Of a DNA stretch of 58,195 bases, positions 17,443 through 44,741 are shown piece by piece. The translations under genes were made by a program, and so were the position numbers. The first letter of the stretch is position 1; each line of letters starts with the position of its first letter. The notes under the pieces were generated by a model. It was not told the DNA's origin and ran no database searches. It saw nothing but the letters and a program-made list of their open reading frames with translations. This stretch comes from an uncultured Bacteroidales bacterium (GTDB lineage Bacteria; Bacteroidota; Bacteroidia; Bacteroidales; Bacteroidaceae), in the NCBI GenBank assembly GCA_902774335.1, contig CACYHW010000019.1, forward strand, positions 1-58,195, written 5' to 3'.

Positions 17443-18021
17443 ATGTTTGAACTGATTACATTGCCATTCGGGCCCAAGGATCTGGAGCCCGTGATAAGCG
17501 AGAGGACTATTGGTTTCCATCATGGGAAGCATTTGCAGGCTTATGTGGATAATCTTAATAAGTTGCTGCCCGGGAGCGGGCTTTCTGAGGATTTGTCGCT
17601 GGAGGAGATTGTGTGCAAATCCAGCGGCGGCATATTCAACAATGCCGGTCAGATACTGAATCACAACATGTACTTTACGCAGTTCTGCAAGGGCGGTAAG
17701 GCCTTATCGGACGGCGCTCTCAAGGCTCAGATTGTAAAGCAGTGGGGCAGTGTAGAGGCTTTCCAGACAGAGTTTGTAGCCAAGGGCGTTAGCCTGTTCG
17801 GAAGTGGATGGGTATGGCTGTCAGCCAAGAAAGACGGTGAACTTGTAATAACCCAGGAGCCCGGCGCATCAAATCCTGTAACACAGGGCCTCAAGCCCAT
17901 TCTCACCTTCGATGTCTGGGAGCACGCCTACTACCTTGATTATCAGAACCGCCGTGCTGCCCAACTTGAAGCTCTCTGGCAGATTCTGGATTGGAGTGTA
18001 ATTGAAAAACGATACAAATGA
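17443..18021 (+). CDS. sodB: Fe/Mn superoxide dismutase
   Basis: 192 aa, the usual length. It dismutates superoxide to oxygen and peroxide in the cytoplasm. Predicted metal ligands are His26 (FHHGKH), His74 (NHNMYF), and Asp157 and His161 (DVWEHAYYLDY). Gly-Ser-Gly-Trp-Val-Trp-Leu near 120 is a family signature. A TATATTTG box lies at 17410-17417, 25 nt before the ATG. The TGA stop (18019-18021) is the first three bases of a REP-like element. The next gene is the peroxidase bcp, so both act against oxidative stress. Confidence 0.93.
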   Translation: MFELITLPFGPKDLEPVISERTIGFHHGKHLQAYVDNLNKLLPGSGLSEDLSLEEIVCKSSGGIFNNAGQILNHNMYFTQFCKGGKALSDGALKAQIVKQWGSVEAFQTEFVAKGVSLFGSGWVWLSAKKDGELVITQEPGASNPVTQGLKPILTFDVWEHAYYLDYQNRRAAQLEALWQILDWSVIEKRYK

Positions 18022-18085
18022 TACAATTGGGGTCAGGCCCCAATTGCACGATTGTGCAAATGGGGCCTGACCCCAATTGCTACTT
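18019..18085. repeat. Inverted doublet of the 33-bp REP-like element
   Basis: Two copies face each other around a 4-nt centre (GATT). The left copy has the GGGGTCAGGCCCC core, the right GGGGCCTGACCCC. The arms can pair over about 25 bp with one mismatch, a BIME-like arrangement between sodB and bcp. The left end gives sodB its stop codon. Confidence 0.85.
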
Positions 18086-18093
18086 GAGAAGTT

Positions 18094-18546
18094 ATGCTGA
18101 AAGTTGGAGATAAGATGCCTCAGTTTGAGGTGGTTGATCAGGATGGTCAAGTGGTTCGGTCATCGGACTTTATCGGGAATGGCCGCAAGACGATTGTGTA
18201 TTTTTACCCCAAGGACAACACGTCGGGCTGCACGGCCGAGGCGTGCTCGTTCCGCGATAATTACGCTGCGCTGACGGCTGCGGGGTACAATGTGGTGGGC
18301 GTGAGCAAGGACAGCGCCAAGTCGCACACTGGTTTCAGGGCCAAGTATGAGCTGCCGTTCCGGTTGTTGGCCGATACCTCTACGGAGATGCTGCAGGCGT
18401 TTGGCGCGTGGGGCGAGAAGAAGATGTACGGCAAGACGGTGCTGGGCACTCTGCGCCGCACGTTCATCTTTTCTGAGGATGGGGTTTTGGAGCGCATCAT
18501 CGAGAAGGTCGATACTAAGAATGCGGCAGAACAGGTGCTAAAATGA
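18094..18546 (+). CDS. bcp: Thiol peroxidase, Bcp/PrxQ type peroxiredoxin
   Basis: 150 aa. It reduces hydroperoxides with electrons from thioredoxin. Peroxidatic Cys46 lies in TSGCTAEACSF and a second Cys51 sits five residues later, as in the resolving-Cys subgroup of Bcp. PKDNTSGCT is the family signature. The gene starts 8 nt after the REP doublet that follows sodB, and its own stop TGA (18544-18546) starts another REP element. Confidence 0.93.
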   Translation: MLKVGDKMPQFEVVDQDGQVVRSSDFIGNGRKTIVYFYPKDNTSGCTAEACSFRDNYAALTAAGYNVVGVSKDSAKSHTGFRAKYELPFRLLADTSTEMLQAFGAWGEKKMYGKTVLGTLRRTFIFSEDGVLERIIEKVDTKNAAEQVLK

Positions 18547-18576
18547 TACAATTGGGGTCAGGCCCCAATTGTACTA
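18544..18576. repeat. 33-bp REP-like element
   Basis: Arms TGATAC and GTACTA with core CAATTGGGG-TCAGG-CCCCAATTG. Its TGA is the bcp stop codon. Confidence 0.9.
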
Positions 18577-18586
18577 TTTTGTGGAG

Positions 18587-18940
18587 ATGAAGGATTATCC
18601 GGACAGAATGACGGTGGAGGAGGCTAGGGATTTTCAGACCAATGTGCTGAGCATCGTTAGCCAGATCCCCCGCGGGAAGGTGACCACGTACGGCAATGTG
18701 GCGGCCTTGGCGGGGTGGCCCAGTCATTCCCGAATGGTGGGTCGGACGCTCCGATATACGCCAGGAGCGGAATTGCTACCTTGTCATCGGGTGGTAAATA
18801 TTGTTGGCCGCACAGCGCCTGGATGGAGCCAGCATCGGCCCTTGCTGGAAGCCGAAGGTGTTTCATTCAAACCCAACGGTCACGTGGATATGCAGCGCCA
18901 TCTCTGGCGCCCTGAAAAAAATAGTACAATTGGGGCCTGA
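18587..18940 (+). CDS. Methylated-DNA-cysteine methyltransferase domain protein (Ogt/MGMT family, short)
   Basis: About 117 aa from ATG 18587. It holds only the DNA-binding/active-site domain of [21 protein letters not shown], the recognition segment [10 protein letters not shown], and the alkyl-acceptor LPCHRVVN with Cys66, so it should repair O6-alkylguanine or related adducts. The usual N-terminal half is absent, as in many stand-alone MGMT domains. The C-terminus runs into a REP element: the last residues (NSTIGA) and the TGA stop are encoded by the repeat, which evidently displaced the original stop. An upstream TTG start at 18569 is less likely. Confidence 0.88.
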
Positions 18941-18954
18941 CCCCTTTTGTATCA
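18922..18954. repeat. 33-bp REP-like element overlapping the MGMT gene end
   Basis: Arms TAGTAC and GTATCA, core GGGG-CCTGA-CCCC with a diverged right arm (CCCCTTTTG). The TGA in its centre ends the MGMT reading frame. Confidence 0.88.
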
Positions 18955-18972
18955 TTTTTCTATATTTGCAGT

Positions 18973-20082
18973 ATGATTCCGTTTTTGAGTTTAAAGGAGG
19001 TTACCGGGCTGCACGCGGCTGAGATTCAGGAGGCCGTTAAGCGTGTGGTTGAGAGCGGGTGGTATCTTCAGGGCGCTGAGAATGAGCGCTTTGAGGGGGA
19101 TTATGCTTCCTTTATTGGGTCTAAGTACTGCGTGGGCTGTGCTAATGGGCTGGATGCTTTGATTTGGATTTTCCGGGCTTATATTGAGCTGGGCGTGATG
19201 CAGGCTGGCGATGAGGTGATTGTTCCGGCTAATACTTATATTGCTACCATTCTGGCTATTACTGAGAATGGGTTGAAACCGGTGCTGGTTGAGCCTTCAA
19301 TTGAGACTCTGGAGATTGATCCGGAACGCATTGAGGCTGCAATTACTTCACGTACTCGTGCGATTTGTATTGTTCATCTTTATGGACGGAACTCGTATTC
19401 AGATAGAATAGGAGAGATTTGTTCTAAGCATAATCTTAAGTTGATTGAGGATAACGCTCAGGCGCATGGATGTAAGTGTGCTGACGGGCGTAGAACGGGC
19501 TCTATTGGCGATGCTGCCGGTCATAGTTTCTATCCTGGCAAGAACCTGGGTGCGCTGGGCGATGGCGGTGCTGCAACAACTAATGATCCTGAGTTGGCTA
19601 AGGCCGTTAGGGCGCTCGCTAATTATGGTTCATCAGCCAAATACGTCTTCAAATATACCGGTCGCAACAGCCGCTTAGATGAGATCCAGGCCGCAGTTCT
19701 GGATGTAAAGCTCAAACATCTTGAAACAGATAATGCGCATCGTCAGCAGGTTGCAAAGATGTATTATGAGGGAATCAATAATCCGCTGATTACATTGCCT
19801 AAACGCTTGCCTGATGCTCAGGACGTCTATCATCTGTTCCCTGTTTTGTGTACCAAGCGAGATGAACTCCAAGCCTACCTGAAAGAGAATGGGGTAGAGA
19901 CCATAATTCATTATCCCATCCCCCCGCACAAGCAAGAGTGCTACGCTAAAGCTGACTGGAATTCCGGTCTAAAACTGCCCATCACCGAGCAAATTGCAGC
20001 TCAAGAACTCAGCCTACCCATCGGCCCCACAATCAAGCCTGAGGATGTAGCCTATATCATTGATGTAATCAACAGATTCTAG
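18973..20082 (+). CDS. DegT/DnrJ/EryC1/StrS sugar aminotransferase
   Basis: 369 aa, PLP-dependent. It transfers an amino group to a keto-sugar nucleotide. The PLP-binding Lys190 lies in [16 protein letters not shown], and [12 protein letters not shown] plus EDNAQAHG are family motifs. The overall pattern ([10 protein letters not shown] start, [11 protein letters not shown]) is like the FdtB/QdtB 3-keto-6-deoxyhexose aminotransferases, so the product may be a 3-amino sugar for surface polysaccharide; substrate is inferred. A TATATTTG box (18961-18968) ends only 4 nt before ATG, implying a nearly leaderless mRNA. Confidence 0.88.
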
Positions 20083-20086
20083 AAAA

Positions 20087-20119
20087 TGATACAATTGGGG
20101 CCTGACCCCAATTGTACTA
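20087..20119. repeat. 33-bp REP-like element
   Basis: Arms TGATAC and GTACTA, core GGGG-CCTGA-CCCC. It starts 4 nt after the aminotransferase stop and ends 5 nt before the -7 box of the next gene. Confidence 0.9.
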
Positions 20120-20136
20120 TTTGCTAACTTTGCAGC

Positions 20137-20736
20137 ATGTATTGGATTGAGATTATTGGTACGTTCGCTTTTGCGATAAGCGGTATCAGGCTTGCTGCTG
20201 CGAAACAGTTTGACCTGTTCGGCCTGTTCATCGTAGGCTTTGTTACAGCTGTTGGCGGCGGAACAATCAGGGATGTAATGCTGGGCGTGAGGCCGTTCTG
20301 GTTTGATGATCTGATGTCGCTTCTAATCGTTGCAGGTGCATTGGTACTGTACTATTTCTTCCACAAATTGGTTGACCGGATTGCCGGTACAATTTTCCTC
20401 TTTGATACTATCGGACTTGCTATTTTTACTCTTTTGGGTATGATCAAGGCCCTTGATATGGGTTGCTCGGCGGTAATCGCAATAGTGATTGGCGCTATGA
20501 CCGGTGCTGGCGGTGGCGTTATACGCGATATCTTCATCAACGAGGAGCCGCTCATTTTCCGCAAAGAAATCTACGCACTTGCCTGCGTTGCAGGTGGATT
20601 GGTATATCTGTTGCTGGAATATTTCAATTTCAGTCCGGCCGTGTATCGGACCGGATGCGTAGCTGGAGTAATAATAATCCGCCTCTTAGCCACCAAATAT
20701 CACTGGCAACTTCCCAAGGTCAAGATGGAAAAATGA
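20137..20736 (+). CDS. TRIC-family cation channel (UPF0126, YadS/YicG-like)
   Basis: 199-aa inner-membrane protein of about seven helices. The two internal repeats each carry the TRIC glycine signature: VTAVGGGTIRDVMLG and MTGAGGGVIRDIF. Bacterial TRIC homologues form trimeric monovalent cation channels. A TAACTTTG box at 20125-20132 ends 4 nt before ATG, so the transcript is nearly leaderless. Its TGA stop (20734-20736) is the beginning of a REP element. Confidence 0.88.
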   Translation: MYWIEIIGTFAFAISGIRLAAAKQFDLFGLFIVGFVTAVGGGTIRDVMLGVRPFWFDDLMSLLIVAGALVLYYFFHKLVDRIAGTIFLFDTIGLAIFTLLGMIKALDMGCSAVIAIVIGAMTGAGGGVIRDIFINEEPLIFRKEIYALACVAGGLVYLLLEYFNFSPAVYRTGCVAGVIIIRLLATKYHWQLPKVKMEK

Positions 20737-20766
20737 TACAATTGGGGCCTGACCCCAATTGTTCCA
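20734..20766. repeat. 33-bp REP-like element between convergent genes
   Basis: Arms TGATAC and GTTCCA, core GGGG-CCTGA-CCCC. It gives the TRIC gene its TGA, and the convergent glycosylase gene ends with TAA 2 nt from the other foot. Confidence 0.9.
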
Positions 20767-20768
20767 TT

Positions 20769-21326
20769 TTAGAAGAGCTGGCGGTAGGCGTCGGCTTTTT
20801 TGTTTATTGGTAGCGGGTAGGCGCGCGACGTTGAAGGCATTCGCCAGAAGTTGATTGGGCGATTGCCTATTTTTATTTCTATGTGGCTCCCGATGGGTGG
20901 AATGGGGCAGTTGAAGGTGCTGCTGATGACCTCGGTGGCCTTCTGGCCTGTTGTGACCAGAGTGGTGCAATTCGGGATTTGTTGCAATAGTGAAGGGATA
21001 TCGGTCGGTGTTACAACTTCTAAGAATGCGTCGGAGGCGTTGTCTTTCAGTCTGCGGATTTGGGTTGCGGTGTCATAGAACGCTAGGCCGTTTTGGGTGC
21101 AGAATTTGCGAATATCGGCCTCGTTGAAGCGTTTTTCTGTGATGTTGCAGAAGTGGTCTTTGTCGTTGAAATGAATCAGGCCGATGATTCGCCAGAAGTC
21201 GTTGATCCAGTTGGGGTAATAGAACGGCATGCTCCAACGATGCAGCTGGGGCGGGAAACTGCCCAGAAAAAGGATCCTGGTGTTCTTGGGCAGAAACGGT
21301 TCAAACGGGTGCTGCTCTATATTCAT
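20769..21326 (-). CDS. Uracil/mismatch-specific DNA glycosylase family protein
   Basis: 185 aa. ILFLGSFPPQLHRWS near residue 18 is motif A-like of the uracil-DNA glycosylase superfamily (G-S-F-P-P), and RMPSTSRAYP near the end is the family's motif B-like loop. A region around residue 127 (TTLVTTGQKA) is the central strand. It likely removes uracil or mismatched thymine from DNA; the exact subfamily cannot be set by eye. Convergent with the TRIC gene. Confidence 0.72.
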   Translation of the reverse strand: MNIEQHPFEPFLPKNTRILFLGSFPPQLHRWSMPFYYPNWINDFWRIIGLIHFNDKDHFCNITEKRFNEADIRKFCTQNGLAFYDTATQIRRLKDNASDAFLEVVTPTDIPSLLQQIPNCTTLVTTGQKATEVISSTFNCPIPPIGSHIEIKIGNRPINFWRMPSTSRAYPLPINKKADAYRQLF

Positions 21327-21346
21327 TGGTTACAAAATTAGCAAAA

Positions 21347-21379
21347 TGATACAAAAGGGGCCTGACCCCAATTGTATCA
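21347..21379. repeat. 33-bp REP-like element
   Basis: Arms TGATAC and GTATCA, core AAAAGGGG-CCTGA-CCCCAATT. It lies between the divergent glycosylase and AbiE genes. Confidence 0.9.
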
Positions 21380-21456
21380 TTTGAAAGAAATTTGAATAAA
21401 ACTACGGCTAATTCAGAAAAAAGCCGTATTTTTGTTGCGATATAAAGAATTGCCTA

Positions 21457-22023
21457 ATGGATAAGGAACTGATAATTAATGGTGTGATGAGTACGCATGA
21501 AATCCGCGAATCACAGAGTTACTACGGCATAAGGAAGGCTGTGGAGGATGGAAGTGTGGTGCGTCTGAAAAACGGCGTGTATGCATCGGCTGAGGCGTTA
21601 GCGGATACTATGATTGATATCGAAAGAGTAGTACCGCGCGGTGTGCTTTGTCTTTATTCGGCCTGGTCACATTATGGATTGACGACGCAGATTCCAGGGG
21701 CGTTCTATGTGGCTGTAGAGAAGCATCGTAAGGTCGTTGTGCCGGAGTTTCCTCCAATACAACTATGCTATTGGGAGCAGAAGTACTACGATTTGGGTGT
21801 TGAGGAGGCTAAAGTGCAGGGTCAGATAGTTAAGATCTACGGATTGGAGAAATCAGTGTGCGATGCGGTTAAGTTTCGCAACAAGATTGGCCTGGACGTG
21901 GCTGCTGAAGTTCTAAAAAACTATCTTGCCAGGAAGGACCGTAACATTGCCCTCTTGACTGCTTACGCGAACCAGATGCGCGTGGCAACGACTTTGAAGG
22001 GGTATCTGGAGATCGGACTTTGA
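21457..22023 (+). CDS. abiEi: AbiEi-type antitoxin (type IV toxin-antitoxin)
   Basis: 188 aa. The N-terminal part is a winged helix (GVMSTHEIRESQSYYGIRK, then VVRLKNGVYA), followed by the AbiEi C-terminal domain with LCLYSAWSHYGLT and LEKSVCDAVKFR. AbiEi represses its own operon and counteracts AbiEii. The gene ends 13 nt before abiEii. A TATTTTTG box lies at 21427-21434, and the inverted repeat around ACTACGGC..AAGCCGTA just upstream could be the autoregulatory operator. Confidence 0.87.
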   Translation: MDKELIINGVMSTHEIRESQSYYGIRKAVEDGSVVRLKNGVYASAEALADTMIDIERVVPRGVLCLYSAWSHYGLTTQIPGAFYVAVEKHRKVVVPEFPPIQLCYWEQKYYDLGVEEAKVQGQIVKIYGLEKSVCDAVKFRNKIGLDVAAEVLKNYLARKDRNIALLTAYANQMRVATTLKGYLEIGL

Positions 22024-22036
22024 ATAACAACAATTA

Positions 22037-22906
22037 ATGGAGAAAAAGAATTTCGGTGTATCGAACAAGGCTAGATTGCTGAACATCACTCGGCAGACGG
22101 CGGGGCAGACTTATATGCAGGTGTTGTTGCGTTTTATACAAGAGCGGTTTCTGTATAGGTTGTCGCTGAGCGAGTATCGGAATCATTTCTATCTGAAAGG
22201 AGGTGTGCTACTGTATGCTCACGAGCAATTCAATGCCCGTCCGACGATGGATATGGACTTTATGGGTGATAGGATTAACCGTGATAAAGAGAATATCAAA
22301 CGGGCGTTCCAGACCATCTGTCGTGTTGATTGTCCTGAGGATGGCGTTAAGTTTGACAGTGGGGATGATGAGATTATTTTGGAGGATATAACATTGGAAA
22401 GAGAGTACAATGGTATCAGAATTCTCATTACTGCTCATCTGGATTCGATAGTGCAACAAGTGTCAATGGATGTGGGATTTGGCGATATCATTATTCCCAA
22501 ACCTGTGGACTTGGATTATCCGTTGTTGCTGGAGGATTTACCAGAGGTGAAGGTTAAGGCATACTCACTGGAAACGGTGGTGGCAGAGAAATTTCAGACA
22601 ATGATAGACCGTGCGGAGAGCAACAGTCGTATGAAGGACTTCTTTGACGTATACACGATTCTGAAGAGTGGTAATGTTGACATGGTGGTGTTGAGAGATG
22701 CTGTGAGAGAGGTGTTCGCTAATAGAGGGACTGTGTATATGGAGGTACATCCATTGTTTGAGCCCGCGTTTGTGGAATCGGAACAGCGTCAGGCTATGTG
22801 GCGGGCTTTTCTGCGTAAGATAAAATATCCTGAGACACCAAAGTTTGGTGAGGTGATGGGAGAGATCCTACCGGTGCTGCGGCCTTTGTGGGAGATGATG
22901 AAATAG
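22037..22906 (+). CDS. abiEii: AbiEii-type nucleotidyltransferase toxin
   Basis: 289 aa of the AbiEii/MenT nucleotidyltransferase family. YLKGGVLLY (Gly55-Gly56) and RPTMDMDF (Asp72, Asp74) form the catalytic GG...DxD core. KAYSLETVVAEKFQTM and RMKDFFDVYTI are the later conserved motifs. Members inhibit growth by adding nucleotides to target molecules (tRNA 3' ends for MenT). Together with abiEi it forms a phage-abortive type IV system. Confidence 0.9.
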   Translation: MEKKNFGVSNKARLLNITRQTAGQTYMQVLLRFIQERFLYRLSLSEYRNHFYLKGGVLLYAHEQFNARPTMDMDFMGDRINRDKENIKRAFQTICRVDCPEDGVKFDSGDDEIILEDITLEREYNGIRILITAHLDSIVQQVSMDVGFGDIIIPKPVDLDYPLLLEDLPEVKVKAYSLETVVAEKFQTMIDRAESNSRMKDFFDVYTILKSGNVDMVVLRDAVREVFANRGTVYMEVHPLFEPAFVESEQRQAMWRAFLRKIKYPETPKFGEVMGEILPVLRPLWEMMK

Positions 22907-22927
22907 TTTTATTGGCCTTTGATAAAT

Positions 22928-23409
22928 CTATATATGAATTACTTTACAAGGATCAAATCCGTTTGCCAGGTGTTCATTAAAGCATACGTAACCAAGTTGG
23001 TTGGTAACGATTTTTGTATTGCCGATGACAGTGTCGATGTTGGTGTGGGAGTGGCCGTAAATCCAGGCGTCAATGCGGCTATCGGCAATGTAATCGCCTA
23101 ATTCTGTGGCGAATGCACCATTTAATACTGATTCTTTATGCTGGGCAGATACCACCGACATAGTGGGCAGATGATGGGTTACCACAACGATATGTTTTGC
23201 CGTACTCTGCTCAACAGCCTGTTTAAGGAAACTGAGACATTTTTCGTGTTCAAGGTTATAATCATCGGGCGTAAACCGATGGCCGTTGTATAGAATCTGG
23301 CGGAAATCATTCATTCCTCTTAGCACATTGCCTCGAATTCATTGGCTTTTATGAATCGGGAATTTTCAGTAAACTCCATATGGAGGTCACTCATGTGTTG
23401 GATCTTCAT
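22928..23409 (-). pseudogene. Metallophosphoesterase gene with internal deletion
   Basis: The N-terminus (MKIQHMSDLHMEF, from 23409) and the C-terminal half (HIVVVTHHLPTMS, then WIYGHSHTNID) both belong to a calcineurin-like phosphoesterase, but they are in different frames and about 120 residues, including the GD and GNHD motifs, are missing between them near 23325. The gene is therefore inactive. Confidence 0.8.
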
Positions 23410-23476
23410 TTTATTGTTTTTTGCAAAATTCTTCTTAGAAAGAATTGCTTCCAAATCTTTGCAAGGTTTGCAGAGA

Positions 23477-23509
23477 TTTGGAGGGTTAAATGGGGTGGGA
23501 GTACCTTTG
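23477..23509 (+). promoter_or_regulatory. Promoter of the AAA+ ATPase gene
   Basis: TTTG (23477-23480), 21 nt, TACCTTTG (23502-23509); ATG follows 23 nt later. It overlaps the upstream region of the broken phosphoesterase gene on the other strand. Confidence 0.7.
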
Positions 23510-23532
23510 CTGCGTTGTTTAACAATGGTAGT

Positions 23533-24705
23533 ATGAAAAATAATCAGCAGTGGATTAATGAATCGGGAACTTTTTTCCCTGTGAGCGGAGATACCCGTTT
23601 GCTTGAGTCGCCGGGTGATGGTGTTTTTGTGGTGGTCCAGACCAGTACTGCCATGATGAAGAGGATAGGTCTTAAAAGAATTGGAGATCAATTTGTTTTT
23701 GATTTCAAAATATATGAGTTGGGCCTAGAGCCGATAATAGGACTTGTTAAAAAGACTTGGTTTTCTGATGCTTTTATTGAAGGAAACAAGAATCTGGGAA
23801 TAATATTCAATGGTATAAAAGGTACGGGTAAGACAATATCGGCCAAACTCTTATGCAATGCTATCGGTCTGCCGGTGGTGATTGTTCAGAATAACTGTGA
23901 TGGCCTGCTGCCATTCCTGCAGTCGCTGAATTTTGAATGCGTGGTGTTTATTGATGAGGCCGAAAAGACCTTTAAGAAGGGCGAGGACGATGATATCCTG
24001 CTCAGGCTTATTGATGGAGTGTATAATGCTTGCCGCCGATTGTATATTCTGACTACCAATCAGTTGACGCTGAATGATAATCTGCTGGGTCGCCCCGGAA
24101 GGATTCGTTATCGGTTTGAATTCTCGAACCTTCTGCCCGAGGCTATAGAGGAGTATCTGAAGGATAATCTGAGGTCTGATTTGATGGATCAGAAGGAGAA
24201 GATTCTGCAACAGATTGACCTGTTGGAGATATCGACCATTGATATCCTGAAAGCGTTGGTGGATGAGGTAAATATTCATGGTCAGTTGCCTGAGACCCCA
24301 TGTCTGAATATTCCGGTTGCCAAATTTGCGTATGAGATTCTTAAGTTCCATTATTTGGACAATATTGAGGATAAGACGCAGGTGTTGAACTTTATTCGCA
24401 CTAAAATGGGCGAGAACGGATATGTCTCTTTAAATGAGTGGATTAATAAATGGAAATCAAAGGATGGTAATAAAGATGCGGTTGATCTCCTGACGGATGA
24501 ATTTGATTATGTTTCAATACATACGATGACATCAACATCATCATCTCTATGGCGTGAAACCACCACATCAATGGGTTCAATTGTAAGTGAACCGGATGCC
24601 GACGGCTTCTTTATTATGCGTTCACGATATGATGACTCGGATATGCTCTGTTTGCTTCTTAAGAGGAAAGAATCGCCATCTTTGTACAGGGGAATGCTTG
24701 TGTGA
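23533..24705 (+). CDS. AAA+ ATPase of unknown role
   Basis: 390 aa from ATG 23533, which follows a good promoter. Walker A is GIKGTGKT (residues 94-101), Walker B CVVFIDEAEK, sensor-1 ILTTNQ and arginine-finger region GRPGRIRYRF. The C-terminal 130 residues include a small helical lid and an unassigned tail. The layout resembles single-domain AAA+ remodelling or loader ATPases often carried by phages and islands. No partner is obvious, although three proteins of unknown function follow. Confidence 0.75.
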   Translation: MKNNQQWINESGTFFPVSGDTRLLESPGDGVFVVVQTSTAMMKRIGLKRIGDQFVFDFKIYELGLEPIIGLVKKTWFSDAFIEGNKNLGIIFNGIKGTGKTISAKLLCNAIGLPVVIVQNNCDGLLPFLQSLNFECVVFIDEAEKTFKKGEDDDILLRLIDGVYNACRRLYILTTNQLTLNDNLLGRPGRIRYRFEFSNLLPEAIEEYLKDNLRSDLMDQKEKILQQIDLLEISTIDILKALVDEVNIHGQLPETPCLNIPVAKFAYEILKFHYLDNIEDKTQVLNFIRTKMGENGYVSLNEWINKWKSKDGNKDAVDLLTDEFDYVSIHTMTSTSSSLWRETTTSMGSIVSEPDADGFFIMRSRYDDSDMLCLLLKRKESPSLYRGMLV

Positions 24706-24715
24706 TGGGGTAAAA

Positions 24716-24748
24716 TAGTACAATTGGGGTCAGACCCCAATTGTACCT
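24716..24748. repeat. 33-bp REP-like element between convergent genes
   Basis: Arms TAGTAC and GTACCT, core GGGG-TCAGA-CCCC. The convergent gene's TAG stop lies directly against its right foot. Confidence 0.9.
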
Positions 24749-25385
24749 AAAGATTCGTTTTGCCCAGTAGGGTGAAGTATAAATCTACCACATTACTCAT
24801 TGTCTTGATATACAATTTGAGTTCTGAGAGAGTAAGGGGTTTTCGTTTTTGGCTGAAAAGGCTGTATTCCTGGAATTGGTCAACAAAAGTTTTGTAGTCA
24901 ATTTTTGATATTTGGTACAACAACAGGACTTGGGCGTAAATGGAATAGTTGAGGTTTGCGAAGGCTTTGAATGTATAATACTTTCTTGCCTTATAGACTT
25001 TCTTACAGAATTTTTCTGCCACTTTGGGATAGAAGCAATCGCCTTCAAGCAACTCTAGAAGATGTTTGTATTCCTTATATTTTTCAATTGCTTCATTGCA
25101 GTAATCATCCACAGTTTCCATCAATTCTGATGGGGTTGTAGGGTGTGAAGGGACCAATTCGGTGAGGAAAGATGCTAGTATTTCGGCATGCTCGTATGTA
25201 TCCTGAAATCCGCTTGCGGCCAATGATTGCAAATCGGACATCATGTGGTATGGACCGTAAACCAGCGTTAATTTACAGGCTATCATGGTTTTTAGTGATC
25301 TGAAGAGCCATCTGTCATGTGTGGCATTTTTCAGAATCAGGTGTTTCATTGTTTCCTCGGTGAAATATGATAGTTTCTTTTCCAT
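24747..25385 (-). CDS. Hypothetical helical protein (212 aa)
   Basis: I do not recognise it. The protein is almost entirely helical (EKKLSYFTEETMKHL, YCNEAIEKYKEYKHLLELL) without signal peptide or transmembrane segment. It starts 1 nt after the stop of the upstream winged-helix-like gene on the same strand, so the two are co-transcribed. It may be the partner of that gene and of the AAA+ protein. Confidence 0.65.
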   Translation of the reverse strand: MEKKLSYFTEETMKHLILKNATHDRWLFRSLKTMIACKLTLVYGPYHMMSDLQSLAASGFQDTYEHAEILASFLTELVPSHPTTPSELMETVDDYCNEAIEKYKEYKHLLELLEGDCFYPKVAEKFCKKVYKARKYYTFKAFANLNYSIYAQVLLLYQISKIDYKTFVDQFQEYSLFSQKRKPLTLSELKLYIKTMSNVVDLYFTLLGKTNL

Positions 25386-25386
25386 T

Positions 25387-25773
25387 TCATTTGATTTTGG
25401 GGCCGATGCGATATCGGCCGTCGTGGTGGCGTATAATTATGAAACTTTTTGCTTTTCGGGCACCTATGGTGGTGATGAACTTGTGCTTGATTCGGGATAT
25501 GTTGGAGTAGAAAACTATTTTTGATTTGCCACAGAGGTTTTCTACAGTACTGAGCATCAGTTTTTTGTCGTCAAAGACCGATTCGTGGGCATACAGGCGG
25601 TAGAGTTCTTGCCAATGCAGCGCGAGAGCATCGGCCCTGATGCCCTCTGGGTGGTTAATAAAGAGTTGATATAGTGTTCGTTCCATTGGATTTAGGTACA
25701 CTATGTTGTTGTCGGCGGGTAGATGGAATTGGCCTGGATGGGGGCCTGGGATGATTTGATTTTTATTGCTCAT
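25387..25773 (-). CDS. Small protein of the same family as 25926-26516
   Basis: 128 aa. LNPMERTLYQLFINHPEGI matches LRPLVKTLFVLFLRHPEGI of the divergent gene at 25926, and both end in a basic DGRYRIGPKI-type segment. The shared part is probably a helical/winged-helix domain known from many Bacteroidetes hypothetical proteins; its function is unknown to me. A CACCTTTG box lies about 30 nt upstream. Confidence 0.65.
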   Translation of the reverse strand: MSNKNQIIPGPHPGQFHLPADNNIVYLNPMERTLYQLFINHPEGIRADALALHWQELYRLYAHESVFDDKKLMLSTVENLCGKSKIVFYSNISRIKHKFITTIGARKAKSFIIIRHHDGRYRIGPKIK

Positions 25774-25891
25774 ATGGACTATCTTTTATTGTGGCAAAGG
25801 TGTTGTCGGAAATCGGCATTAAAAAGTGATTACAAGCTTGTAATTGTTTGGTATTTCAAATTGTTTATTTATGAAATAGTGGCGTTTGGGC

Positions 25892-25921
25892 TTGGCGGGT
25901 GAAGTATTTTTCGTACCTTTA
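25892..25921 (+). promoter_or_regulatory. Promoter of the 25926 gene
   Basis: TTG (25892-25894), 19 nt, TACCTTTA (25914-25921). The ATG at 25926 follows after 4 nt, so the mRNA would be almost leaderless. Confidence 0.55.
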
Positions 25922-25925
25922 TGGT

Positions 25926-26516
25926 ATGATGATACGTGGAAACATAGAGGTTCAGTTGATGTGGCAGTTGCTTTTTCCTGGAGTTCCCTGGAAGCTGAGT
26001 GAACCACAGGTTGATTATGGCGATTTGCTTGATGGGATGGAGGCTGCCGAGCTGATGGCGCTTATGACTAAGGTTCAGGAGCGGCTTAAGCATCTTGGAT
26101 GTGGCTTGGAATCGCTGGGTGAGCCTGTTGAATTGTTTATAGACAAGAATTATAGTATTAGAATGGGAGGACCTGATGGGCCGATACTTCAGTTGAGACC
26201 GTTGGTTAAGACACTGTTTGTCTTGTTTTTAAGGCATCCGGAGGGTATTCTGCTGAAGCAACGTGATAGTTTTAGGACAGAGCTGGAGGAGATTTATTCT
26301 ACGATTAATCCTAATACTTTTAAAGAGGATGTTAAGGCCAGGGTGGCGCGCCTGGTTGACCTTGAAGACAATTCTTTTAGCGAGAAGGCATCGGTCTTGA
26401 ATGCCCGACTGGAGGAGTTGCTTCCGGAGGGGATTGCGGGCGATTATCAGATTCAAGGGCGCAATGGATGCCCGCGTAAGATCCGGCTTAATCCGCTGCT
26501 GGTTCATTGGTGTTGA
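25926..26516 (+). CDS. Hypothetical protein, paralogue of the divergent 25387 gene
   Basis: About 196 aa from ATG 25926 (or 25929). The N-terminal 80 residues are unique. The C-terminal part, from LRPLVKTLFVLFLRHPEGI through NSFSEKASVLNARL to RKIRLNPLLV, is the conserved Bacteroidetes family domain also present in the neighbour on the other strand. It may be a DNA-binding or regulatory protein, but no motif proves this. A REP element and the RAYT gene follow. Confidence 0.65.
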   Translation: MMIRGNIEVQLMWQLLFPGVPWKLSEPQVDYGDLLDGMEAAELMALMTKVQERLKHLGCGLESLGEPVELFIDKNYSIRMGGPDGPILQLRPLVKTLFVLFLRHPEGILLKQRDSFRTELEEIYSTINPNTFKEDVKARVARLVDLEDNSFSEKASVLNARLEELLPEGIAGDYQIQGRNGCPRKIRLNPLLVHWC

Positions 26517-26524
26517 TGCATAAA

Positions 26525-26557
26525 TGATACAAAAGGGGTCAGGCCCCAATTGTATCA
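26525..26557. repeat. 33-bp REP-like element flanking the RAYT gene (left)
   Basis: Arms TGATAC and GTATCA, core AAAAGGGG-TCAGG-CCCCAATT. It lies 45 nt before the transposase ATG. Confidence 0.9.
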
Positions 26558-26601
26558 TTTTTTTTTCTATCTTTGCGATATAATCAATTTTTGCTTTTAC
26601 C

Positions 26602-27399
26602 ATGGCACGAAAAATGAGATCAGCCAGTGATTCTGGCGTTTACCATGTTATTCTGCGCGGGGTGAACCGGCAGGACATTTTCGAGAATGAGAAGGATTTT
26701 CTCAAGTTTTTAACTCTGATGGAGCGTTTGGTTTTCCCGGTGGATGAGACCGGGCAACGGATTCCGCCTTTGCTGGTCATTTACGCTTATTGCCTGATGC
26801 CTAATCATGTGCACCTGCTTGTTAGGGAACAGAAGTGTGGGGTATCGACCGCAATTAAATGGTTGTCAGGTACTTATGCTGGCTACTTCAATATCAAGTA
26901 CGAACATGTGGGCCATGTGTTCCAAGGCCGTTTCAGAAGCGAGGTGGTAAATGATTGGGAGTATTTTTTGACTCTTATGCAGTACATTCATCAGAATCCG
27001 GTTGCCGGAGGGCTGGTGAAAAAGGTGGGTGATTATCGGTGGAGCAGTTGGCGTGAGTATGATTCTAAGATGGTTTGTGATGTTCCGATGTGCTCGAAGA
27101 ATTCGGTTTTTACAAAGATTTCGTTCGATGCGCTTGAGGAGTTGGTCAATACACCGCTGGCTAAAACGCAGAGAGTCCTGGATTTTGATAGTGATACAGG
27201 TCGGCGCGTGACAGATGAACGGGTGCGTGAGTATATAAAGGCGGAGTTTGGAATCACGGAAGTCTCTACTATTCAACATTTTGCGAAGGCCGAACGTAAC
27301 GAGATAATTAAAAGTTTACTGAGGTTTTGCAGGAATGTGGCGCAGATATCACGCGTGACCGGTGTCAGCCGAGGAGTTATCCACAGGCTCGATAAATAG
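26602..27399 (+). CDS. REP-associated tyrosine transposase (RAYT, Y1-HUH)
   Basis: 265 aa of the Y1 transposase IS200/REP family. The HUH motif is MPNHVHLLV (His69, His71), the catalytic tyrosine is Tyr128 in QYIHQNPV, and VYHVILRGVNRQDIFEN and GHVFQGRFRSE are RAYT hallmarks. A C-terminal helix-turn-helix (ISRVTGVSRGVIHRLDK) resembles those that bind REP DNA. It should nick and move single-stranded REP hairpins. A TATCTTTG box lies at 26568-26575. REP elements sit on both sides, and the right one supplies its TAG stop (27397-27399). It is the likely source of the 33-bp elements in this window. Confidence 0.93.
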   Translation: MARKMRSASDSGVYHVILRGVNRQDIFENEKDFLKFLTLMERLVFPVDETGQRIPPLLVIYAYCLMPNHVHLLVREQKCGVSTAIKWLSGTYAGYFNIKYEHVGHVFQGRFRSEVVNDWEYFLTLMQYIHQNPVAGGLVKKVGDYRWSSWREYDSKMVCDVPMCSKNSVFTKISFDALEELVNTPLAKTQRVLDFDSDTGRRVTDERVREYIKAEFGITEVSTIQHFAKAERNEIIKSLLRFCRNVAQISRVTGVSRGVIHRLDK

Positions 27400-27429
27400 T
27401 ACAATTGGGGCCTGACCCCATTTGTATCA
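27397..27429. repeat. 33-bp REP-like element flanking the RAYT gene (right)
   Basis: Arms TAGTAC and GTATCA, core GGGG-CCTGA-CCCC. Its TAG ends the RAYT gene, and its TTTG (27421-27424) is the -33 box of the manA promoter. Confidence 0.9.
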
Positions 27430-27451
27430 TTTTTGATATTTTGTATCTTTG
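27421..27451 (+). promoter_or_regulatory. manA promoter partly inside a REP element
   Basis: TTTG (27421-27424), 19 nt, TATCTTTG (27444-27451); ATG 27460 follows after 8 nt. The -33 box is part of the repeat. Confidence 0.65.
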
Positions 27452-27459
27452 CGTTTAGT

Positions 27460-28509
27460 ATGGAAGGGGCAAAATTGTATCCGATGCTGTTTGAGCCTAA
27501 CCTGCATGAAATAGTGTGGGGCGGCGACAGGTTGTGCCGATGGAAGGGGCTGCCGGATCAGGAGCATATCGGCGAGAGCTGGGAGGTTAGCGCTGTGGAG
27601 AGCTCTCCTTGCGTGGTTGCAAATGGGACTTATGCGGGCAAGCTGCTGCCGGATGTGGTCTCGGTTGATCCTGAGGGCATTTTGGGCAAGGCTGTGGCCA
27701 AGCATTACGGGAATAAGATGCCGCTTCTGGTCAAGTTCATCGATGCGCAGAAGGACCTCTCCATCCAGGTTCATCCGGATGATGCGATGGCCCAGTGCGA
27801 GCACGGCAAGATGGGTAAGACCGAGATGTGGTACATCCTGGACGCGGAACCGGGCGCTTGCATCTATTCAGGATTCAAGAAATCACTTACGGCCGATGAG
27901 TACAAGCGGATGGTTCAGAATGGAACTATTGTGGAGGCTTTGGCGCGTCATGAGGCTCATGCGGGCGATGTGTTTTACATTCCGGCCGGCCGAGTGCATG
28001 CCATTTGCGGCGGAATAATGCTGGCTGAGATTCAGCAGTCAAGTGACGTAACTTACAGAATATATGATTATAACCGCCTCGGACTGGACGGAAAACCTCG
28101 TCAGTTGCATACGGAGTTGGCGGCTCAGGCGCTGAATTATCGGGTTGAGAGCAGGTATCGGACCGCATATTCAGTCAAGGCGAATCATGCTAACAGGGTG
28201 GTGGAGACGGCGTTCTTCAGTGCCCGCGTTACGGACATCGGCCAACGTTTTCACAGGGACCTCAAAAAGTATGACAGTTTCATCATAACTATGTGTCTTA
28301 AAGGAGATTGCAGAATCAAGATCCGTGAGACTGGCGATGGAATTGTGCTTCGTGAGGGTTGCAGTTGCCTGATTCCTGCGGCGATTGCAAACTATGATAT
28401 TGAGCCGATTGGTACTTCTACGCGCGTTCTGGATGCGTTCATCGACAACCAGAAGCGCGGAATTATACGTCGTTGGTTCTGGCAAACTTTTAGAAAAACA
28501 GAAAAATAG
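27460..28509 (+). CDS. manA: Mannose-6-phosphate isomerase, type I
   Basis: About 349 aa from ATG 27460. It interconverts fructose-6-phosphate and mannose-6-phosphate, the first step toward GDP-mannose. Zinc-binding motifs are visible: QVHPDDAMA, GKTEMWYIL and GDVFYIPAGRVHAI. It is followed by manC, so the pair makes GDP-mannose for polysaccharide; the intermediate phosphomannomutase is not in this window. The TAG stop (28507-28509) comes from a REP element. Confidence 0.92.
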   Translation: MEGAKLYPMLFEPNLHEIVWGGDRLCRWKGLPDQEHIGESWEVSAVESSPCVVANGTYAGKLLPDVVSVDPEGILGKAVAKHYGNKMPLLVKFIDAQKDLSIQVHPDDAMAQCEHGKMGKTEMWYILDAEPGACIYSGFKKSLTADEYKRMVQNGTIVEALARHEAHAGDVFYIPAGRVHAICGGIMLAEIQQSSDVTYRIYDYNRLGLDGKPRQLHTELAAQALNYRVESRYRTAYSVKANHANRVVETAFFSARVTDIGQRFHRDLKKYDSFIITMCLKGDCRIKIRETGDGIVLREGCSCLIPAAIANYDIEPIGTSTRVLDAFIDNQKRGIIRRWFWQTFRKTEK

Positions 28510-28539
28510 TGCAATTGGGGCCTGACCCCAATTGTATCA
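28507..28539. repeat. 33-bp REP-like element between manA and manC
   Basis: Arms TAGTGC and GTATCA, core GGGG-CCTGA-CCCC. Its TAG is the manA stop. Confidence 0.9.
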
Positions 28540-28557
28540 TTTTGCAAAAATGATGAT

Positions 28558-29616
28558 ATGGCGAATCATGTAGTAATTATGGCGGGAGGTATTGGGAGCC
28601 GTTTTTGGCCTCTTAGTACTCCGGAGTTTCCTAAGCAGTTTATTGATATTTTAGGTTGCGGCAGGTCGCTGATTCAGTTGACTGTGGACCGATTCAAGGG
28701 CATCTGCCCTGAGAGCAACTTTTGGGTTGTTACCAATCAGGCGTACGTGGATATCGTAAAAGAGCAGATTCCCGGTATTCCATCGGCCCATATCTTGGCT
28801 GAGCCGGCTGCACGCAACACTGCGCCCTGCATAGCTTGGGCATGCTGGAGCATCAAACAGGTGGATCCATCGGCCAATGTTGTGGTTACCCCCAGCGATG
28901 CTGTAGTGATGAACCCTGAGGAGTTCAGGCGCATAATCAGCAGTGCTTTGGAATTTACTGCCACGCATGACAATATCGTTACCATCGGCATCAAACCAAA
29001 CAGGCCTGAGACTGGCTACGGTTATGTGAAAACTGAGCAAAACGTGCAATTGGGGCCTGACCCCAATTGTATCATTTTGGTGGAAGCTTTCAAAGAGAAA
29101 CCGGATTTGGAGACGGCTAAGAGGTATTTGGCCGATGGAAACTACCTGTGGAATGCGGGTATTTTTGTTTGGAATGTCAAGACTATCACAGATTCGATAA
29201 GGGCTTATAAGCCTATTTTGGCGGAACAAATGGATAAAATGATGCAATTGGGGCCTGACCCCAATTGCACGGTGGAGGCTATTTTCCCGCAGTGTGAGAA
29301 GATTTCTATTGACTATGCTGTTATGGAGCCGGCGGCTGCGGATGGTAAGGTGTTTACTTGTCCGGCTGATTTTGGATGGAGTGATCTGGGCAACTGGCAG
29401 TCGCTGCATGAAAAACTGCAGAAAGATGAACAGAACAATGCAGCTGTGGGTAATGTACGCTTCTATGAATCAAGCAATTGCGTGGTTCATACGGAGGACC
29501 TTAAGAAGGTTGTGCTGCAGGGACTGGACGGATTTATTGTGTCTGAAAAGGGCGGTCAGCTTCTGGTCTGCAAGCGCTCTGAGGAGCAGCGAATCAAAGA
29601 GTTTGGAGCAAAATGA
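28558..29616 (+). CDS. manC: Mannose-1-phosphate guanylyltransferase with two in-frame REP insertions
   Basis: 352 aa. It makes GDP-mannose from GTP and mannose-1-phosphate. The nucleotidyltransferase signature is MAGGIGSRFWPLS (residues 9-21), with EPAARNTAP and NAGIFVWNV later. Unusually, two 33-bp repeats are embedded in the coding frame: residues about 163-173 (VQLGPDPNCII) between YGYVKTEQN and VEAFKEKP, and about 228-238 (MMQLGPDPNCT) between AEQMDKM and VEAIFPQ. Both points are variable surface loops in the family. The frame stays open and the conserved motifs are intact, so the enzyme is probably still functional. The TGA stop is also repeat-derived. Confidence 0.9.
   Translation: MANHVVIMAGGIGSRFWPLSTPEFPKQFIDILGCGRSLIQLTVDRFKGICPESNFWVVTNQAYVDIVKEQIPGIPSAHILAEPAARNTAPCIAWACWSIKQVDPSANVVVTPSDAVVMNPEEFRRIISSALEFTATHDNIVTIGIKPNRPETGYGYVKTEQNVQLGPDPNCIILVEAFKEKPDLETAKRYLADGNYLWNAGIFVWNVKTITDSIRAYKPILAEQMDKMMQLGPDPNCTVEAIFPQCEKISIDYAVMEPAAADGKVFTCPADFGWSDLGNWQSLHEKLQKDEQNNAAVGNVRFYESSNCVVHTEDLKKVVLQGLDGFIVSEKGGQLLVCKRSEEQRIKEFGAK
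29042..29074. repeat. 33-bp REP-like element inside manC (first)
   Basis: Core GGGG-CCTGA-CCCC, arms ACGTGC and GTATCA. The left arm has lost the TAG/TGA that would end translation. It is read in the only frame of this orientation without a stop. Confidence 0.92.
29240..29272. repeat. 33-bp REP-like element inside manC (second)
   Basis: Core GGGG-CCTGA-CCCC, arms TGATGC and GCACGG. Read in the same frame as the first copy, giving QLGPDPNC again. Confidence 0.92.
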
Positions 29617-29646
29617 TACAATTGGGGCCTGACCCCAATTGCACGT
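29614..29646. repeat. 33-bp REP-like element after manC
   Basis: Arms TGATAC and GCACGT, core GGGG-CCTGA-CCCC. It supplies the manC TGA, and its CAATTG the -33 box of the next gene. Confidence 0.9.
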
Positions 29647-29668
29647 TTGTTTTATTATATTATTTTTG
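29639..29668 (+). promoter_or_regulatory. Promoter of the polysaccharide export operon, partly in a REP element
   Basis: TTG (29639-29641), inside the repeat, 19 nt, TATTTTTG (29661-29668); ATG 29692 follows 23 nt later. Confidence 0.65.
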
Positions 29669-29691
29669 CAGAAAATTTTTAAAGACATTAT

Positions 29692-43277: not shown

Positions 43278-43290
43278 GGGGTTTCAAAAA

Positions 43291-43351
43291 GAGCCAAACG
43301 GAACCGTCCCCTTTGTCATCAGAGCCAAACGGAACCGTCCCCTTTGTCATC
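43291..43351. repeat. Tandem pair of a second short repeat (AAAGGGGACGGTTCCG family)
   Basis: GAGCCAAACGGAACCG...CCCCTTTGTCATC occurs twice with a 31-bp period. The second copy supplies the TGA stop of the minus-strand pepP. A third copy is at 58064. Confidence 0.88.
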
Positions 43352-44741
43352 TCGCCATGAACTCTTCCACATCATCCGGATGGTAGGGGATGATGTCGGC
43401 ACCCAGGACTCGGCAGCCGGTGGGGGTAATCAGGATGTCGTCCTCGATGCGGATTCCGCCAAAGTCGCGGTAGGTTTCTATTTTGTCGTAGTTTAGGAAG
43501 TCGGTGTGCATGTGCTCGGCCTTCCATTTGTCGATGAGGGCGGGGATGAAGTAGATTCCGGGCTCGTCCGTCATGACGAAGCCGGGCTGGAGACGGCGGC
43601 CGCAGCGCAGGCAATTGGTGCCGAATTGCGTTGAGGGGCGGACTTCATCGTCAAAACCTACGTAGATCTGGCCAAGGCCTTCCATATCGTGTACGTCCAT
43701 TCCCATCATGTGGCCCAGACCGTGCTGCAGGAACATTGCGTGCGCTCCGGCGGCTACGGCGTCATCGGTATTGCCTTTCATCAGACCCAGGTCCTTGAGG
43801 CGGTCGGTCATGAGGCGGCAAACGTCCAGATGCATGTCCATCCATTTCATATCGGGGCGGGCTTTCTCAATCACCAGGTCGTGACAGGCCTCGACGATTG
43901 AGTAGATGTCCCGTTGCATGGAAGTGAACTTGCCGCTGATGGGCATGGTGCGGGTGTTGTCGCTGCAGTAGTTGTTGACGGTCTCGGCTCCGGCATCGAC
44001 CAATAATAATCGTCCGGGCTCAAGAGGTTTGAGCGAGGGGTCGCCGTGGAAAATCTCGCCGTGCATGGAGACTATGCTGCTGAACGATACTTTGGCACCG
44101 TAACTCATTGCTATTCCCTCCATTATGCCGCCGATGGACTTCTCGGCCACGCCGGGTTTGCAGTGTTTCATTGCGGCTGTATGCATCTGGTAGCCGATGG
44201 ACATGGCGCGCTCAATCTCCTCAATCTCGGCGTCCGATTTGACGGAGCGCATGCTCACCACCGCCTTTATCAACTGGACCGATGCGGCATCGCGGGTTTT
44301 CAGAGGATGAATGCCCAGCATATCGGACAACAGGATCATATGATCGTGACGGTAGGGAGGCAGGAAGTGTACCTTTCGACCCAGCTTGAGGGCATCGGCC
44401 ACAAGTTCCTGCAGCTTGGAGAAGGGGGCGCTGTTACGGACGCCGCACTCTGCTGCCAGATCGGCCACCGAGGGAACGAATCCGGTCCATATTATGTCCT
44501 CGATATCGATGTCGTCGCCCAAGAGCCACTCCTGACCGCTGTCGGCATCGATTACGCCGGCAAGTGAGTCGCGGTCCTGACCAAAATAGTACAGGAACGA
44601 GCTGTCCTGACGGAAAGTGTAACCGTTGGCAGGATAGTTGCAGGGGGCGTTATTGTTGCCCAACAGGATAATCAGACCCGAACCCACCTTGTCGCGAAGC
44701 ACAGAGCGGCGCAAGGAGTATGTTTTTTGATCGAACAGCAT
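43347..44741 (-). CDS. pepP: Xaa-Pro aminopeptidase (aminopeptidase P)
   Basis: 464 aa, M24 family. It removes N-terminal residues preceding proline. An N-terminal creatinase-like domain (ILLGNNNAPCNYPAN) is followed by the pita-bread catalytic domain. Metal ligands are in LLLVDAGAETVNNYCSDNTR (two Asp), FLQHGLGHMMGMDVHD (His), TDEPGIYF (Glu) and IRIEDDILIT (Glu). It is soluble, with no signal peptide. The last codon and stop lie at a repeat (43347-43351). Confidence 0.93.
   Translation of the reverse strand: MLFDQKTYSLRRSVLRDKVGSGLIILLGNNNAPCNYPANGYTFRQDSSFLYYFGQDRDSLAGVIDADSGQEWLLGDDIDIEDIIWTGFVPSVADLAAECGVRNSAPFSKLQELVADALKLGRKVHFLPPYRHDHMILLSDMLGIHPLKTRDAASVQLIKAVVSMRSVKSDAEIEEIERAMSIGYQMHTAAMKHCKPGVAEKSIGGIMEGIAMSYGAKVSFSSIVSMHGEIFHGDPSLKPLEPGRLLLVDAGAETVNNYCSDNTRTMPISGKFTSMQRDIYSIVEACHDLVIEKARPDMKWMDMHLDVCRLMTDRLKDLGLMKGNTDDAVAAGAHAMFLQHGLGHMMGMDVHDMEGLGQIYVGFDDEVRPSTQFGTNCLRCGRRLQPGFVMTDEPGIYFIPALIDKWKAEHMHTDFLNYDKIETYRDFGGIRIEDDILITPTGCRVLGADIIPYHPDDVEEFMAR

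Follow-up and report, generated by a model that had tools for sequence, protein, structure and literature searches.

REP-like palindromes of a one-genus REP/RAYT system lie at gene ends, where they probably overlap native stop codons

The window analysed here is the whole of a 58,195-nucleotide stretch of contig CACYHW010000019.1 (assembly GCA_902774335.1) from an uncultured Bacteroidales bacterium, and it carries many copies of a short element resembling the repetitive extragenic palindromes (REPs) of REP-associated tyrosine transposases (RAYTs), together with a RAYT gene. The element is a 41-nt palindrome, AAAAT(GA/AG)TACAATTGGGG-loop-CCCCAATTGTA(TC/CT)ATTTT, which reads as an A-run, a stem and a T-run in both directions and whose outer foot triplet is TGA or TAG. 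A preliminary description of the window proposed that this triplet is the stop codon, directly after a final AAA, of sodB, bcp, the TRIC/glycine-transporter gene, the RAYT gene, manA and manC; direct reading confirms all six, and its further statement that either foot can read AAATGA or AATAG is borne out, with AAATGA or AAATAG on both sides of the element. The convergent genes at 20769 and 24747 also end by a foot as described, the TAA of the first sharing two A's with it and the TAG of the second standing at an atypical foot. Two further cases had been missed, an MGMT-like gene and a minus-strand gene ended by another repeat family (Table 1).

The window genome (G000, a draft of 2.35 Mb in 29 contigs) holds 40 copies of the palindrome at up to 3 mismatches, densest near the RAYT gene. 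At up to 2 mismatches, 23 of the 37 genus genomes have it, as against 0 of 24 drawn from the order's other families. Like a REP, it is a short, many-copy palindrome that is mainly extragenic (of 390 cores, 50 are within called genes and 29 are deep, in-frame copies) and that sits between codirectional or convergent genes: repeat islands occupy 145 codirectional, 58 convergent and 9 divergent gaps, the gap totals being 441, 109 and 85. The canonical GTAG/GTGG tag is absent 5' of the stem, and the main feet are ATGATA and ATAGTA. Four REPs gave folding z-scores of -2.6 to -4.1, and 13 of the 23 terminator-like sites at 17500-29800 coincide with REPs, against 11.9 sites in all from shuffled sequence. 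Having a stable stem followed by a T-run, the REP could be a putative intrinsic terminator. Of 177 codirectional gaps with a REP (181 loci), 93 have a TAnnTTTG box, a Bacteroidetes promoter element, between the REP and the following gene, and in 37 of them the box lies 10-12 nt past the core; 57 of 170 REP-free gaps contain it, over search windows unequal to those of the REP gaps.

The RAYT gene is flanked by REPs, as in a REPtron. Its product matches the Pfam family Y1_Tnp at 42.4 bits (cut-off 23) and holds the motifs NHVH and YIHQNP; a search of PDB returned no match at E 0.01. RAYT subclass 2.6, as described in the available text of Quentin et al. (2018, PMC6006769), is mostly from Bacteroidetes and has the motifs NH[LIV]H and YIH[QN]NP and atypical secondary structures, and here too non-canonical palindromes flank the gene and are copied in the genome. 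The WQ motif given there for the subclass was not located in the window RAYT. Judged by these motifs and that description, the protein may belong to subclass 2.6. RAYT matches at E 0.001 occur in 24 of the 37 genomes of the genus, all drafts, and close RAYT relatives come from metagenome-assembled Bacteroidales (Bacteroidaceae/Prevotellaceae) of the rumen and gut. In a sample of 78 more distant RAYT genes, taken from wider taxa and having sufficient flanking sequence, a stem of at least 9 pairs lies over the stop codon in 7 and begins within 15 nt of it in 23. Six of them (L303, L304, L308, L310, L312 and L342) end inside a GAACCGTCCCCTGATCT repeat.

Table 1. Repeats of the window and the genes that they end or adjoin
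Feature	Position	Strand	Relation to genes
REP 1	18015..18055 (core 18024-18046)		left foot is sodB stop TGA 18019-18021, after AAA
Second core behind REP 1	18057-18079
REP	18540..18580		left foot is bcp stop TGA 18544-18546, after AAA
REP	18918..18958		loop is TGA stop 18938-18940 of MGMT-like gene, which enters in another frame
REP	20083..20123		directly 3' of aminotransferase gene, which has its own TAG at 20080-20082
REP, convergent genes	20730..20770		left foot is TGA 20734-20736 (after AAA) of TRIC/glycine-transporter gene; A-run of right foot contributes to TAA of minus-strand gene 20769-21326
REP, divergent genes	21343..21383		supplies no stop
REP, convergent genes	24712..24752		minus-strand gene 24747-25385 ends in TAG 3 nt off core
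REP	26521..26561		upstream of RAYT gene; 5 nt past TGA of gene 25899-26516
RAYT gene (Y1 transposase)	26602..27399	+	REPs on both sides; stop is the next REP's foot
REP	27393..27433		left foot is RAYT stop TAG 27397-27399, after AAA
REP	28503..28543		left foot is manA stop TAG 28507-28509, after AAA
REP in frame within manC, first site	29038..29078 (core 29047-29069)
REP in frame within manC, second site	29236..29276 (core 29245-29267)		core identical to that of first site
REP	29610..29650		left foot is manC stop TGA 29614-29616, after AAA
Second repeat family GATGACAAAGGGGACGGTTCCGTTTGGCTCT, two tandem copies	43290..43351	-	TGA of first copy stops minus-strand gene 43347-44702

The position of repeats relative to stop codons was expressed as d, the distance from the stop codon to the stem, with d = 2 where the stop is the foot. 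The first set comprised 121 loci and 727,846 bases, made up of the window, 20 stretches from the RAYT loci of 19 genomes, and further stretches of G000 (20), G036 (30), G018 (35) and G005 (15); these cover part of the sites of G005, and G022 is represented by its RAYT locus only. Genes were called with our own codon-statistics caller, which missed the MGMT-like gene, so the counts carry calling error. Any core no further than 150 nt from the end of its stretch was dropped (3 cores, rising to 4 in the full set), and the register counts exclude the inner sides of doublets (51 towards 3' ends and 44 towards 5' ends) together with sides more than 400 nt from a gene. Orthologous sites recur between genomes, so that the counts are not independent.

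The foot is the stop on 117 of the 258 outer sides that face a gene 3' end, and every sampled genome shows the pattern (23/46 in G000, 29/66 in G036, 27/65 in G018, 16/33 in G005), while d = 7 and d = 8 account for 24 sides each, d = 3 to 6 together for 8, and stops in the loop for 6. AAA is the final codon for 103 of the 117 sides at d = 2, as opposed to 66 of 416 genes with no repeat within 400 nt, and the stops on these sides are 78 TGA, 39 TAG and 0 TAA, where the same repeat-free genes have 170, 56 and 190. The 48 sides at d = 7 or 8 have stops that touch the A-run of the foot or overlap it: 34 TAA, 13 TGA and 1 TAG. Uniform placement of the repeats within the same gaps predicts 12.4 sides in the exact register and 114 of 256 were seen (binomial p 1.5e-78, a value too small because orthologous sites are not independent). 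Loose proximity differs less, with 126 sides at -1 to 5 nt against 86.7 expected and 188 within 9 nt against 165.9; the gaps being short, closeness alone is weak evidence and the signal lies in the register. The preliminary description had made the comparison of repeat-to-stop distances with random placement the touchstone of its proposal, and it is at the exact register that uniform placement fails. The same register was found in a validation set of 20 stretches each from G009, G007 and G012, drawn from a list of sites, for which the prediction was set down after fetching and before analysis: d = 2 on 32 of 88 sides (18/28, 6/16 and 8/44, respectively), AAA as the last codon in 28 of these 32, and 15 stops at d = 7 or 8, all TAA. 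The exact register of repeats on stops is thus far beyond chance, and chance placement, which would account for closeness just mildly above uniform in short gaps, is vanishingly improbable.

The stop triplet is a property of the foot wherever the element lies and not just at gene ends, being present in 243 of 346 feet facing 3' ends in the larger set and, among the commonest feet listed, in at least 106 of 156 facing gene 5' ends. Feet that lack it still abut native stops (d = 7 to 9 in 37 of 103). As both feet bear stops, one copy can end two convergent genes; among 83 convergent pairs with a single island, both genes are foot-stopped in 13 and one gene in 33. Reading frames that enter a repeat (the 121-locus set plus G009) end at a foot stop in 135 cases, at a loop stop in 6 and read through in 2, with three doubtful read-through open reading frames of 41-66 aa excluded; the departure from equal thirds has a p of 6e-54, for sites that are not independent. 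Eight G007 genes, 159-565 aa long, read through a REP close to their 3' end and stop 2-13 codons further on (loci L238, L239, L243, L246, L248, L251, L255). That such tails are tolerated, at least in G007, argues against pure lethality as the filter, although the REPs of this genome may be decaying, since a RAYT match was not found there.

What the gene ends looked like before the repeats was examined in 30 clusters, each with a repeat-ended gene and its closest repeat-free orthologue, orthologues being aligned in the order available. The protein has the same length in 17 of the 30 clusters and is within 2 residues in 28, the remaining two differing by -5 and -18. The mapping of insertions relative to the ancestral stop, as the preliminary description had suggested, therefore places the repeats over native stops, which in the repeat-free orthologues are TAA in 19 clusters, TGA in 7 and TAG in 4. 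The terminal lysine is often native as well: of the 13 clusters with unchanged length and a Lys-terminated repeat-ended protein, 10 have a final Lys in the repeat-free orthologue too, while a native terminal Lys is found in 3 of 13 length-changed clusters, 0 of 4 same-length clusters not ending in Lys, and 22 of 71 controls. In the same-length subset alone it is native in 10 of 17 (p 0.048). AAA thus does precede the foot stop, as the preliminary description has it, but the codon is often not made by the repeat. In about a third of the clusters the stop codon alone is altered, and in others the final one or two codons are altered too. In the window genes, manA in three repeat-free genomes ends in KTEK with TAG, TGA or TAA; bcp finishes in LK in seven repeat-bearing genomes, whereas in four others it finishes in LG, LS or LD, only one of these four being free of a nearby repeat; and in three genomes sodB, having no repeat, continues into the first part of bcp.

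Three other accounts of these ends were set aside. A general native AAA-stop fits the unchanged ends only, as repeat-free orthologues end in AAA-TGA/TAG at a mean per-cluster frequency of 0.07, compared with 0.10 in controls. Loss of a redundant upstream stop predicts a gain of two codons, and the observed lengths centre on 0. The third is target-site duplication; by eye, the manA junction resembled a duplication of 7 nt.

Other repeat families also meet stop codons. A GGGACGGTTC-type box lies by 34 gene ends, 10 of them in a 7-8 nt register, with AAA as the last codon in 1 of these 10, and native last codons seem to be kept at the sites of this second family (e.g., HWE, KVKM). A further family, GACGCAAAG..CTTTGCGTC, likewise opens on TGA, with just 2 sides found.

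Conserved sites are occupied by changing repeat types. Two repeats share their arm type in 151 of 284 pairs from the same site, in 4797 of 5312 pairs from the same genome and in 18806 of 28595 pairs that differ in both respects. Of 18 genomes, 10 carry two in-frame REPs within manC, G029 carries one and 7 have none; in a tree (without printed support) G011, which lacks them, sits inside the REP-bearing clade. The two manC cores are identical within 9 of the 10 genomes, yet unlike between genomes. Mismatches in the cores and in the rest of the gene were 6/46 vs 45/965 in the close pair G022/G023, and 0/46 vs 60/847, 8/46 vs 100/959, 8/46 vs 62/848, 0/46 vs 101/957, 7/46 vs 143/959, 2/46 vs 184/966, 1/46 vs 171/958 and 3/41 vs 188/966 in the others. 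The cores are thus either conserved or changed jointly in both copies, which fits conversion between the copies. Elsewhere in the window, a core at 40873-40895 lies inside a 788-aa gene (40634-43000) whose orthologue in G036 has a REP close by, in a different frame (L075 4072-4094). At L153 7412-7434 and at L051 (gene end GEQGKL) the repeats are incomplete or nested, an old foot remaining next to a new core, which suggests replacement or slippage at hairpins. It is conceivable, if unlikely, that the feet serve as homology arms, single-stranded REP copies pairing through AAAATGA/AAAATAG and TCATTTT-like ends and replacing the DNA in between. REPs would then fall on gene stops, where lysine plus stop resembles a foot, old REPs would be overwritten in place, and every site, even an intragenic one, would track the current type of its genome. 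The identical manC cores within genomes that differ between genomes, and the higher arm agreement within genomes than at shared sites, speak for such a process; against it, 6 of 9 manC pairs have cores no more divergent than the remainder of the gene (far less so in two of the six), and ordinary gene conversion would account for the turnover.

Our preferred interpretation, to which we assign a probability of about 0.6, is that REP-like palindromes of a REP/RAYT system found in one genus occupy gene ends by overlapping native stop codons and possibly act as two-way terminators. The foot would cover the final codon together with the stop, or come directly after the stop, so that the stop is kept or remade (TAA becoming TGA or TAG) and the protein altered by 0-2 residues. 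The RAYT would have moved the REPs, the stop-bearing feet would make an insertion at a gene end harmless and hence retained, and the palindrome could end transcription in both directions for neighbouring genes. Several results weigh against this interpretation. Control clusters are tighter, with the same length in 51 of 57, whereas 13 of the 30 clusters with a repeat at the stop show a change of length. The excess of native lysine over all such clusters is not significant (13/30 vs 22/71, p 0.26), nor is it in a further comparison (12/24 vs 19/57, p 0.21). Exact ends are evidently not required in G007, where the eight read-through genes stand against 6 foot stops on 16 sides, and the register is infrequent in G012, whose commonest foot, AGAGTA, has no stop. 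The window RAYT scores 55.8 bits against NCBIfam NF047646 (REP_Tyr_transpos), below the cut-off of 80, and would be a divergent member of that family or a sister group; G007 and G009, both draft genomes, carry REPs but no match to it at E 0.001; and no movement of a REP has been observed.

The preliminary description had invoked either a target preference for stop codons or selection at them, and while the stop register is indeed far above uniform, the data do not separate the two. Under the former, the RAYT would join the element at a short match to the foot (AAAAT or (A)TGA/TAG), for which a terminal Lys-AAA and stop offer a match, and the element would complete the stop. We consider this tentative. 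Foot pairing selects cleavage sites in relatives of IS200/IS605 and, according to the available text of PMC8266576, is established for these and for one REP system, so that a foot-like target is plausible; lysine is native in most of the unchanged Lys-ending clusters, other last codons keep both codon and stop position (Leu CTA-TAA/TAG, Glu GAG-TAA, Leu CTT-TGA), the second family retains native last codons in the same register, and the tails in G007 imply that the rarity of read-through elsewhere is not simply lethality. Yet bcp and 10 of the 13 length-changed clusters lack a native Lys, the overall enrichment is not significant, so short a motif would be hit away from gene ends too, and there is no insertion junction of known age. 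Selection without any target, in which insertions land anywhere near gene ends and only frames that stop at once survive, seems to us just as doubtful: the counts of foot stops, loop stops and read-throughs and the nearly empty divergent gaps are what it predicts, but lengths pile up at 0 instead of spreading across the last codons, G007 carries its tails, and in-frame intragenic copies exist. More improbable than any of these is that ancestral terminator hairpins were converted to the repeat type of each genome with little new insertion. The same sites are filled in many genomes by different core types, as this would require, but the 30 clusters provide repeat-free orthologues at the same gene ends, the copies inside manC cannot terminate manC, and the repeat is confined to one genus among those searched. 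On balance, the repeat-free orthologues and the second family speak somewhat more for placement on the native stop.

The supply of stop codons by REP termini is already known and the present system is therefore not new in kind. In the GTAG REPs (Di Nocera et al. 2013, PMC3733652), the available text reports that termini often provide flanking open reading frames with a TAG stop, that some copies lie within open reading frames, and that differing REPs occupy approximately the same recB site in two Xanthomonas species. Those elements, like ours, are short palindromes located mainly between codirectional or convergent genes, by their 3' ends; here, by contrast, there is no GTAG/GTGG tag, TGA or TAG stands in both feet, so that one copy can end two convergent genes, and measurements cover the register, the frames and the native ends. 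Many of the REPs of E. coli are found no more than 15 nt from a stop codon and can lower translation, as reported in the portion of the RepRanger paper available (PMC12306157), but they come after the stop, whereas here the foot is the stop. Rickettsia palindromic elements, as cited in the available text of PMC3733652, are found in frame inside proteins in the manner of the two manC copies, although intragenic copies are the minority here. Compared with the literature searched (open PMC papers), the two stop-bearing feet, the frame statistics and the orthologue mapping are new, as are a second family at stops and genome-specific cores at conserved sites.

For annotation, a caution follows: the terminal lysine and stop of many genes in these genomes are repeat, and some proteins have repeat-coded tails or inserts. 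Mobile elements in compact genomes must land harmlessly, and a stop triplet at both ends, in a fixed register, is a simple answer to that problem. The many copies, together with the availability of close relatives, make target preference and selection testable against each other in this genus.

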